A stretch of DNA of 64,000 nt from Jaminaea rosea (lineage: Eukaryota; Basidiomycota; Exobasidiomycetes; Microstromatales). The stretch spans positions 406,831 through 470,830 of the forward strand of contig NW_020289981.1 of the NCBI RefSeq assembly GCF_003144245.1, given 5' to 3'. Each line of letters opens with the position of its first letter. Position 1 is the stretch's first letter. Shown in pieces: positions 3,228 through 60,622 of this stretch. Position numbers and translations under genes: made by a program. The notes under the pieces are model-generated. The model worked only from the letters and a program-made list of their open reading frames with translations, did no database searches and was not told where the DNA came from.

Positions 3228-4198
3228 ATGAAGTTCTCCCTTGCTACCGCTTTCTCCCTCCTCGTCGCCTCTGGCCTCGTCGTCGTCTCAGCCGCGCCTG
3301 CTCCTGTGAGTGCTTAGTCTAAGTTCATCATCTCGAAAGAGAACGTGGTGGGAACGGTCTTATGTGGCAGAGATGGGCAGCTTCCATCCACTCAACTTGA
3401 CTTGACAAGCGGAGAGCTGGATGTCGGGGCATCGCCTTCACCATCAGCATAGAGGCAGCACGCTGACACCATTCACTCCACACGCCTCGCCCTTCCCCAT
3501 CCACGCCGACACACGCGCGTCTCCACTTCACTACATCCTCACCTCGCTCTAATCATCTATCTTGACTCTCTAGGAGACTGCGGACGCTGTGAAGAGGGTG
3601 AGTATTTCGCTTCCTTGCTACCACCAACGCGCCCCGCCGCATTCCCACCCTACCAGACTACTGACCACCACCACCAACTCCCTCCTCATCCCCCCATTCA
3701 TCCTCGCAGGACGACAAGCCCGCTGCTGACTGGGGTCGTGTTGCCGCATGGAAGCGTGACGAAGAGCCCGCCGAAAACTGGGGCCGCGTCGCTGCCTGGA
3801 AGCGCGATGAGCCTGCTGCCGACTACTACGGTGGAGGCCGTGGCGGAAGCTGGAAGCGCGACGAGGAGCCAGCTGAGAACTGGGGCCGCGTAGCAGCTTG
3901 GAAGAAGCGTCTCGACAAGCCCGCTGCCGACTACTACGGTGGTGGTCGTGGTGGCAGCTGGAAGCGCGCAGAGGACCCCGCCGCCGACTACTACGGTCCC
4001 GGCCGTGGCGGTAGCTGGAAGCGCGACGAGGAGCCTGCCGCCGACTACGGCAGGGCTGCAGCATGGAAGCGTGAGGGATCGGACAAGGTTGAGGCCCGTG
4101 AGGAGCCCGCCGCCGACTACTACGGCCCTGGCCGCGGCGGAAGCTGGAAGCGTGAAGACAAGCCCGCCGCTGACTGGGGACGCGCCGCCGCCTGGTAA
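3228..4198 (+). CDS. Secreted Kex2-processed repeat-peptide precursor (nine peptides, two families)
   Basis: Three exons: 3228-3305, 3574-3597 and 3710-4198, giving 196 residues. Residues 1 to about 22 form a clear signal peptide (MKFSLATAFSLLVASGLVVV followed by SAAPAP). After a short pro-segment ending in Lys-Arg (residue 34), nine units follow (35-50, 51-66, 67-84, 85-101, 102-120, 121-139, 140-155, 156-182, 183-196). All but the last end in Lys-Arg; the fourth ends KKR. Family A cores are WGRVAAW, WGRAAAW and YGRAAAW (five copies). Family B cores are YYGGGRGGSW and YYGPGRGGSW (four copies). Every core ends in Trp, and the last is followed directly by the stop. Acidic and Pro/Ala-rich spacers (DEEPAE, DKPAA, DEPAA) precede the cores. 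This is the architecture of Kex2-cleaved secreted peptides such as alpha-factor, Rep1 repellent and dikaritin RiPP precursors, but the cores match none that I know. No tailoring enzyme (e.g. UstY-like DUF3328) lies in the window. Function unknown. Confidence 0.9.
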
Positions 4199-58391: not shown

Positions 58392-58721
58392 CTCTTCAGG
58401 GGGAGCCGTCGTCCACTCCATTGCTCATCTGGTGAGGCAGGCGGATAAGTGCCTGGTCGCACCGGGCCGCACTCAACTCACTGCTTTGAGTACGCGACGT
58501 CCGTCTTCCCAGACGAGCGCAGTAATCGGGCTGTTGCCGTATTGACGAAGAGCGGCTAGCACCCAATTTGCGGTGCTGTAGTGTTGCCGTCGGTCCGGGA
58601 TTCCAGCGTGTTGGGCATGCGAGCCTGTATGTATTGTCAGGCTGACTGGCAAAGGACAGCGCAAGGAATAGCCCTAATCTGTGTTGCTCAGAGACGAGGC
58701 TGGTGACGAGCAAGCGGTCAA

Positions 58722-59639
58722 GTGATGGCTGGAACTGTCCAGATCTCCTCACGTTCGAGCTTGAGCAACAGCTCACTCACGACACGCTTCCAACACCACG
58801 ATTGCGCTTCCCCGTCTCAGCTGACTTACCGTGGCATGGGCTGTCACATCTCCCATAAGGCCCACCCTCACGTATGTCGGTCCCGAGGCTGCCTCTCATC
58901 CGAGTCCAACACTTCGTTCAGTCACCACTCGCGAGGCCTCGAGTTCCTCACACTCTCTGTAATCACACATGCTGCAGGGTCCACAGTGTCCCCTCCCTCA
59001 AAGTCGTACGAGCCTGCCCTTCCGCCTGCAAGTTGCAGCGGAATACCACGTACCAGGTACGTGCTAATGGCATGTGGCTCACAGGTCAACGCTGATAGCT
59101 ATCACATCACGTCGCCAGATTTCTTGCCTTTGTTCTCCATGCCGGTCCCAATTGCCCGCACCTTCGCGAGGCCTGTGAGCAAGCAAGCAAGCAAGTACGT
59201 GCCGATTATCAACGGAGAAGACGGTTGGCCATGCGAGTCTCTCCTGCTCGGATACGGCACACGAGGGGGGGCGATGCCGCGTGCAGGAAGATGCGTGGAC
59301 TCCTTCCCGCTGCTTCTCATTCAAATCGGCTGTCACGCTCGCGAAGCACACTCGTTTGGTCCTCATTCGGGCTTTTTTCTCTGTTGGGCTTCCTTGGGTC
59401 GTGAGAATGAGCCCCTGCTTCTCAGGTTCTGGGGTGCCAGACTGGACTCCCTGAGCATGGAGCGCGGGCCTTTGATGACCGCGTATGACATCCCGTGCGA
59501 CGTCCTTGCGACGTCGGCCTCCGGCGAAGGCTCATGCGGTGTCAGTGGCAACCATTGTCGATTCTCTTCGAATGCTAGCTCTGTCCCGTACTTTGTCTTC
59601 CGGAGACACGCGGGTCTCACGACATTTGGCCGGGACTAG
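58722..59639 (+). other. Orphan open reading frame, 305 codons
   Basis: A single uninterrupted frame of 305 codons, Cys- and Ser-rich, with no signal peptide, membrane segment or known motif. Chance ORFs of this length should be uncommon at about 58% GC, so it deserves mention. The Met start is preceded by no obvious leader, and a minus-strand coding-like segment lies nearby. A real, lineage-specific gene or a chance frame are both possible. Confidence 0.25.
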
Positions 59640-59764
59640 ACTTGGGCTGGCTCGAGCGTGACGCAAAAGGGTTGGAGTTGCAGTTGTCTCACAGTAGCGC
59701 TCATTCATGGTCACCGTGGCCGAGCCGGGATCCAGACTAGCGGAACACCACTTTCATGCAATGA

Positions 59765-60622
59765 GTGTATCTGGGCTTGTGCGACCCACATCTCCCTTTG
59801 TCCTCCCTTCATCGTTGCGCCGCTCGGACGACGCGAAGATCCGGTCGCGCAGCCAGCCCAGTTGACGACCGCGGGCATCATTTGTCGGTCTTTCACTCCT
59901 GCTGTGTTCTGTCAGGGTGTCAGCCTCCTCTACTTTTGGTCTTTTGGCCAGCAGCGGGCTGTGGGCGTGCATCTCCAGACCAATTTGACCCGCTCGCGTC
60001 GCGTACACGTCGATTCACTCTGGCTCCCTCGCTCACTGGCCCGCTTCGCCGGCTCGTCCCTTTGTACCTGTCACATCCGCCGCACCGCACAGCCTGCGCT
60101 TGCACTCAGCTTCGGTCCTGTTCGGGTGACGATGAGATGTGCGATCCTCTCTTTGGTGTCACATTGGCGGCATTGGCGTATGTCGGTCGTGGCGTCGTCC
60201 ACCTAGAGAAGCCGCACGGACGCCCATTGCAAGAAGAAGCAAAAGCCAAGGATGAGGCCAGGGCAGCGGCGGAGCGAGGAGCGAAGAGCGAGAAGCAGCT
60301 GCTACTACGGGCGGCAATGGGCGTCCACATTGGTCAATGTAGTGGAAGCGGGAGACGGACAAAGAGATGCAATCGCTTGGCCGCTGTCGTCTTCACATCG
60401 AAGACCGTAGGCGGACGGGCGCACTGCTCGGCGTTATCAAGAGAATGCTTGCCCGAGACACATTCAGTGATTTCAACGAGTTTCCAGTGTCACACAGAGA
60501 CGACGTCACCCGCCATAGCATCGCCCTCCGCAGGGTCAGTCCACCATTCATTAGCCGCAATCGTCTGCTGTAGCATCAACTTGTCTTTCTCCTCTCCTAT
60601 CATCGAACCGCCCCTGCCTTGA
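59765..60622 (+). other. Orphan open reading frame, 285 codons
   Basis: A second long frame in the same gap, in another phase. The middle holds a charged, helix-prone part (EEAKAKDEARAAAERGAKSE) with Cys/Pro/Ser-rich flanks. There is no family match and no clear splice link to the preceding ORF. Coding status is uncertain. Confidence 0.2.

Follow-up and report, generated by a model that had tools for sequence, protein, structure and literature searches.

What does a basidiomycete make from a gene whose product very probably breaks up into short peptides that all end in tryptophan? Such a gene lies on the plus strand near the start of the window (the whole 64-kb stretch that we analysed, which is C7:406831-470830 of a 16.6-Mb genome in 21 contigs). 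The glutamyl-tRNA synthetase of this genome has its best match, among the named organisms of the 120 hits listed, in Parajaminaea phylloscopi (75% identity over 88% of the query), before Sympodiomycopsis kandeliae (71% over 83%); a further fragment shows 85% over 51%. On this one gene, we regard the fungus as a Microstromatales relative. An earlier note had placed a peptide precursor with two introns at 3228-4198, and the gene was found at exactly that place, with the start codon ATG at 3228 and a stop codon that ends at 4198. The three predicted exons would splice into a 591-nt frame that encodes a precursor of 196 amino acids (Table 1). Its N-terminus has a lysine, then about 19 hydrophobic or small residues, and then a site between VSA and APAP that, by eye, fits the -3/-1 rule. 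We interpret two antisense ORFs at the locus (166 and 216 amino acids) as mere shadows cast by the GC-rich repeats on the other strand. Farther along, the window has long overlapping ORFs on the plus strand at 58707-60622.

Table 1. Features of the precursor gene, in positions of the window. Exon and intron boundaries were inferred from the splice consensus and the reading frame.
Feature	Position	Strand	Description
Exon 1	3228..3305	+	signal-peptide-like MKFSLATAFSLLVASGLVVVSA (3228-3293), then APAP, the start of the pro-region
Intron 1	3306..3573	+	GTGAGT...TAG, phase 0
Exon 2	3574..3597	+	24-nt microexon ETADAVKR, the end of the pro-region and the first Kex2 site
Intron 2	3598..3709	+	GTGAGT...CAG, phase 0
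Exon 3	3710..4198	+	nine repeat units and stop codon TAA
Core 1 WGRVAAW	3731..3751	+	spacer DDKPAAD
Core 2 WGRVAAW	3779..3799	+	spacer DEEPAEN
Core 3 YYGGGRGGSW	3824..3853	+	spacer DEPAAD
Core 4 WGRVAAW	3881..3901	+	spacer DEEPAEN; KKR comes next
Core 5 YYGGGRGGSW	3932..3961	+	spacer LDKPAAD
Core 6 YYGPGRGGSW	3989..4018	+	spacer AEDPAAD
Core 7 YGRAAAW	4046..4066	+	spacer DEEPAAD
Core 8 YYGPGRGGSW	4118..4147	+	long spacer EGSDKVEAREEPAAD with a single monobasic Arg
Core 9 WGRAAAW	4175..4195	+	spacer EDKPAAD; the stop codon comes next, without KR

The nine units fall into two families. Five have cores of the form [WY]GR[VA]AAW (family A: WGRVAAW three times, WGRAAAW and YGRAAAW once each) and four have cores of the form YYG[GP]GRGGSW (family B: YYGGGRGGSW and YYGPGRGGSW twice each). 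The earlier note had described nine units split by Lys-Arg with these cores, and we recovered all of them; one of the separators in exon 3 is KKR and the rest are KR. It had also pointed out that both families have an aromatic start, Gly-Arg, three small residues, and a final Trp, and indeed an Arg stands four residues before the final Trp in 9 of 9 cores. Eight of the units are 14-17 amino acids long, and unit 8 has 25. The spacers are acidic and contain proline. Most are rich in Asp or Glu and continue with P-A-A/E-D/N; they begin with DD, DE, LD, AE, ED, or EG, and P-A-A or P-A-E is found inside all nine. In none of the nine units is there an XA or XP dipeptide (the step for Ste13) directly after the KR. 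Instead, XP and AA are the second and third dipeptides of the spacer in five units (1, 5, 6, 7, and 9), and XP and AE are in two more (2 and 4). The microexon at 3574-3597 is the sole source of the first Kex2 site. Skipping it would preserve the frame and lose the first KR, so splicing could switch the release mode of the first unit.

Could this be a chance or low-complexity ORF? All eight of the KR or KKR sites in exon 3 are preceded by Trp, and the Trp of the ninth unit sits at the stop codon. When we shuffled the residues 20,000 times, the maximum was three Trp-preceded sites, which was reached three times (versus eight observed). Furthermore, silent differences between units are much more frequent, per site, than replacement differences. 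Across all nine units, we obtained pS = 0.71 versus pN = 0.13 for family A (five units, 10 pairs) and pS = 0.47 versus pN = 0.042 for family B (four units, six pairs), where pN is lowered because the pattern that cut out the units already demands most of the core residues. Together, the shuffles and the contrast between silent and replacement differences rule out a chance or low-complexity ORF. The repeats stay alike as protein, and with a Trp before every dibasic site in exon 3 this marks the product as a genuine peptide precursor.

Relatives of the precursor were sought in 5.8 billion proteins. Among the 8,000 best candidates (those sharing the most words), which were scored, none reached E ≤ 10, and so there is no argument to be made from conservation. 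Short fungal genes are frequently left unannotated, which makes the absence of homologues a weak result. Two pairwise alignments, with P0121 (E = 0.001) and P0122 (E = 0.054), reflect a signal peptide, the Trp-dibasic layout, and composition, and we do not claim homology to either. A Pfam search gave a chance-level match to DUF4088 (E = 2.2) and nothing else; in particular, the MF_alpha domains had no match in the precursor. The literature search for the five core strings returned no relevant paper, which agrees with the earlier note, whose author knew of no described peptide with these cores.

Within the genome, a protein search returned only the exons of the gene itself. A pattern of three W-KR repeats had two matches, both within the precursor gene (and none in the control), and a repeated KR[DE]A pattern had no match. 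This gene is thus the sole precursor of its type that we found in the genome. These patterns cover only the codons written into them and only the Trp or EA types of precursor, so further genes for such repeat proteins may exist.

We next considered which kind of precursor it is. KEX2-processed repeat proteins (KEPs) have a signal peptide and at least three similar repeats between dibasic Kex2 sites, in an organism with Kex2 and Kex1; here the N-terminus looks by eye like a signal peptide, there are nine units in two families, and, as discussed below, the genome encodes a kexin and a protein that is Kex1-like by its layout. Judged by its predicted protein, the precursor is a KEP, and it most resembles the Trp-ended, alpha-pheromone-like KEPs of basidiomycetes. 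The earlier note had proposed a secreted, Kex2-type repeat precursor of alpha-factor-like design, which the layout supports, and had considered such a design to be unusual for a basidiomycete. That last point is out of date: such KEPs have been described since 2019 (PMC6339444, PMC7329392, PMC9769878). According to Le Marquer 2019, there are basidiomycete KEPs with Ste13 signatures, and 77 of 1193 KEPs have two motif types (two KEPs have three), which means that a precursor with two core families is no novelty (PMC6339444). Umemura 2020 gives 5.30 KEPs per basidiomycete strain (PMC7329392), and Vogt 2022 reports that Ste13 motifs and cores with a C-terminal Trp occur in many KEPs of basidiomycetes (PMC9769878).

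The Trp-core KEPs in Vogt 2022 (490115 and 447393 from C. cinerea, and others from Pleurotus and Lentinula; PMC9769878) have a signal peptide, as our precursor appears to, and share with it short units split by dibasic sites and Trp ends. For example, C. cinerea 490115 in Pichia yielded QYKAPSW and QMRPPSW, which have Lys or Arg four residues before the Trp, as do all nine units here (PMC9769878). To compare more sequences, we joined published cores into one composite query. Among 1,981 candidates, eight proteins had E ≤ 10: five of them at E ≤ 0.0033 and the other three at E = 0.074, 0.64, and 3.6. The named sources are Pleurotus pulmonarius and P. eryngii. In these eight proteins, Trp precedes 34 of 41 dibasic pairs; because the query itself had the Trp-dibasic layout, the fetched set proves that such proteins exist and not how frequent they are. 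An XA or XP start is found in 28 of the 33 units with a Trp end in this set, in contrast to 0 of 9 here; the cores differ as well, and we do not claim homology. A basic residue four positions before the Trp was seen at only 5 of the 32 distinct Trp ends of the fetched proteins; it is not a general rule for basidiomycete Trp cores and marks at most a subset of them. The KEP from Trichosporon oleaginosus (core QSWGGCGGRGTPCW, PMC6339444) is also from a basidiomycete and has a Gly- and Arg-containing core with a final Trp, but as described in that source it has two Cys, a PCW end, and a Ste13-signature spacer, whereas our precursor lacks Cys. This protein was not recovered by the composite query even though its core stood in the query three times.

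Is the machinery to process such a precursor present? The genome has one match to the P_proprotein domain, in an exon on C12 that encodes Peptidase_S8 and the P domain (the frame that we read does not reach the N-terminal part of the protein). Against solved structures, this exon has its best matches in three chains with the name Kexin (E = 1.4e-123 to 7.3e-122). There is also one match to DPPIV_N, on C10, in a protein of the Ste13/Dap2 and DPP IV kind with Peptidase_S9 and, by eye, an N-terminal membrane segment; from its domains and layout, we call this protein Ste13-like, and so the genome appears to encode the dipeptidyl peptidase that is expected alongside Ste13-signature KEPs. The S10 carboxypeptidase domain has 14 matches at about seven places. 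By eye, the best of these (on C15) has a C-terminal segment that resembles a membrane anchor and an acidic tail, as in Kex1, and on the basis of domain and layout we consider it to be Kex1-like.

Given the gene layout, the protein-level constraint on the repeats, and the presence of genes for kexin and for Kex1-like and Ste13-like enzymes, it is very probable that the precursor is secreted and cut by Kex2 and Kex1. The signal peptide would direct it into the secretory pathway, Kex2 in the Golgi would cut after every KR or KKR, and Kex1 would remove the basic residues to leave Trp ends. (The Trp end of the ninth peptide would come from the stop codon.) A Ste13-like dipeptidyl peptidase or other aminopeptidases may partly trim the acidic Pro spacers. 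With XP and then AA or AE as the second and third dipeptides, Ste13 would act only after the first dipeptide was removed in some other way, and one Asp or Asn would be left before the core. Because none of the units has a Ste13 step after the KR, versus 28 of 33 in the fetched set, we do not expect Ste13 alone to remove the spacers completely. A spacer could also persist: for C. cinerea KEP 447393, the cited section reports both GPPAPSW and DDDPEGPPAPSW from culture fluid, i.e., without and with an acidic Pro spacer, and the latter retains its spacer as the peptides here might. Both derive from the non-repetitive C-terminus of that protein (PMC9769878).

The products would probably be linear peptides of 14-17 residues with the spacer (up to 25 for unit 8) or of 7-11 residues if trimming leaves just the core, alone or preceded by one Asp or Asn. 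According to Vogt 2022, Trp-ended peptides were detected in mushrooms, and mass spectrometry showed linear Trp-ended products of basidiomycete KEPs (PMC9769878). We think that linear products are likely, with less assurance than we have for secretion and cutting. The alternative is a dikaritin-like RiPP, in which crosslinking of aromatic core residues would give cyclic products. Each core does contain Tyr or Trp, and the layout fits the precursors of dikaritins (ustiloxin, phomopsin, and asperipin), which are KEPs with aromatic cores. Also, Umemura 2020 places 22% of all KEP genes near genes for UstYa (DUF3328), and of the 76 KEPs that are homologous to the putative basidiomycete pheromones of Le Marquer, 17 are near a DUF3328 gene (PMC7329392), a mild argument that some members of that group are modified. 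But across basidiomycete KEPs as reported there, UstYa is nearby for only 103 of 1680 (6.1%; PMC7329392). Our genome-wide HMM search for UstYa was empty (the control genomes were equally silent), and no UstYa domain or tailoring enzyme was found among the 10 neighboring ORFs that we chose and scanned (C7:398191 to 428337). Three of these ORFs have no Pfam domain; in the other seven, the domains are of a housekeeping or transport kind: tricalbin-like C2/SMP, RBR-type ubiquitin ligase, ZPR1, PQ-loop, Na/H exchanger, NUFIP1/CCCH, and MFS transporter. These searches weaken the dikaritin option that the earlier note had raised, and we consider crosslinked products to be quite improbable.

The alpha-factor-like layout that the earlier note had recognized also raises the question of mating. 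Like ascomycete alpha-pheromone precursors of the MF-alpha or ppg1 type, the precursor would be secreted and cut by Kex2 to give multiple copies of short peptides. It differs from that type in having no MF_alpha match and no Ste13 step after the KR, and PF02116 (STE2) had no match anywhere in the genome. The same profile method did find STE3, as three pieces at C11:288447-289451, which is the only STE3 locus that we found. For STE3, as for STE2, the control genomes were silent; since the controls were silent in the STE2 and UstYa searches, the absence of either is not proven. About 0.6 kb from STE3 lies a 59-codon ORF (C11:290051-290230, minus strand) that ends in GCVVA and has a second, internal DKPGRPASGCVVA end. 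It has the form of a precursor for a CAAX lipopeptide pheromone with two tandem copies of DKPGRPASGCVVA. A CAAX scan of 20 kb listed five CAAX-like ORFs, and only this one has such repeats. Tandem copies of a lipopeptide pheromone in a Microstromatales relative may merit attention in their own right.

We also scanned upstream regions for ACAAAGGGA, which we take to be the pheromone-response motif of Ustilago. The 1.5 kb upstream of the KEP gene has one match with one mismatch (the mean for shuffled sequence was 0.25), versus three near matches over the same length ahead of the CAAX precursor (L023:231-1730). Three more lie within 0.55 kb (L022:9451-10000) in the region of STE3 and the pheromone gene, and all six have one mismatch each. 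The idea that the mating transcription factor controls the KEP gene is weak, as it is built on one near match to this motif.

An alpha-type mating pheromone, beside or in place of the lipopeptide, would fit the layout of the precursor and the upstream match, and the T. oleaginosus KEP has a core that is strikingly like those of ascomycetes (PMC6339444, in the part cited). Against this, the STE3 gene and the CAAX precursor are adjacent on C11 and the KEP gene is on C7, and it is the separate locus on C11 that seems to serve mating. With no match to STE2 (in a search whose controls were silent) and just one upstream motif, the alpha-factor-like design suggested by the earlier note stands but the role as a mating factor is weakened. 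The precursor is probably not a mating pheromone, and we regard an alpha-type pheromone as very unlikely.

If not in mating, what might the peptides do? The roles named in the earlier note, as signals, surface-active peptides, or toxins, all have a place among the readings that we considered. Ustilago belongs to the subphylum Ustilaginomycotina, as does the nearest named relative of our fungus (Parajaminaea; Microstromatales, Exobasidiomycetes). Rep1 of Ustilago maydis, a smut-lineage protein with Kex2-cut repeats, likewise lacks a Ste13 signature, but the cited text gives its peptides as 37 amino acids long (PMC6339444). Gly-, Arg-, and Tyr-rich cores could adhere to surfaces, as surface-active or cell-wall peptides of this kind would. 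Kex2 products in the tens of residues, on the hyphal wall, are typical of the Rep1 type, and the lengths of the units here (14-17 amino acids in eight of nine) do not fit. We judge a Rep1-like role to be improbable, to about the same degree as crosslinking.

The peptides might instead act on other organisms, either as antimicrobials or as effectors on a plant or microbial neighbor. Each core carries a single Arg, together with one or two Trp, and is preceded by an acidic spacer; acidic spacers occur in some antimicrobial precursors. On the other hand, a core has just a single positive charge. According to the cited part of Le Marquer 2019, plant pathogens have more KEPs than animal pathogens or saprotrophs do (by number and not by share of the secretome), and KEP expression differs during plant infection (PMC6339444). 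Vogt 2022 favors biotic interactions because kep knockouts grow normally: none of six kep knockouts of C. cinerea showed a visible phenotype (PMC9769878). The synthetic KEP peptides tested there were without antibacterial activity (PMC9769878). Overall, action on other organisms seems unlikely, but less so than the roles in crosslinked products, surfaces, or mating.

We favor the explanation that the peptides act outside the cell, most likely as non-mating signals to the fungus's own or neighboring cells. The signalling role is the part of this explanation that is inferred above all else, and the normal growth of the six C. cinerea knockouts (PMC9769878) does not help it. Taken as a whole, the statement that this is a KEP, processed by Kex2 and Kex1 to linear Trp-ended peptides for non-mating extracellular signalling, has in our view about an even chance of being correct. 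As for a receptor, the STE2 search (with its silent controls) offers no candidate, and the lone STE3 locus adjoins the CAAX pheromone gene. A more specific proposal is that the two related families are Trp-ended hormones that act via a receptor outside STE2 and STE3, which would give the fungus an alpha-factor-like, non-mating channel beside an orthodox lipopeptide system. We offer this tentatively, as its chance of holding is well below even.

Basidiomycete precursors of the alpha-factor-like kind have been on record since 2019, and neither the three papers cited above nor the titles and abstract openings from our literature search give the Trp-ended KEPs a function. The precursor could be a clean test case for the function of alpha-factor-like peptides in basidiomycetes. 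The case is unusually clean because we found a single gene with Trp-KR repeats and one locus each for the kexin P domain, DPPIV_N, and STE3, along with a candidate lipopeptide pheromone. Tests by deletion or with synthetic peptides would suffer less interference from the mating system or from obvious paralogues. And with spacers that have no Ste13 step after the KR, the precursor could reveal how peptides of this kind are shortened when that step is absent.
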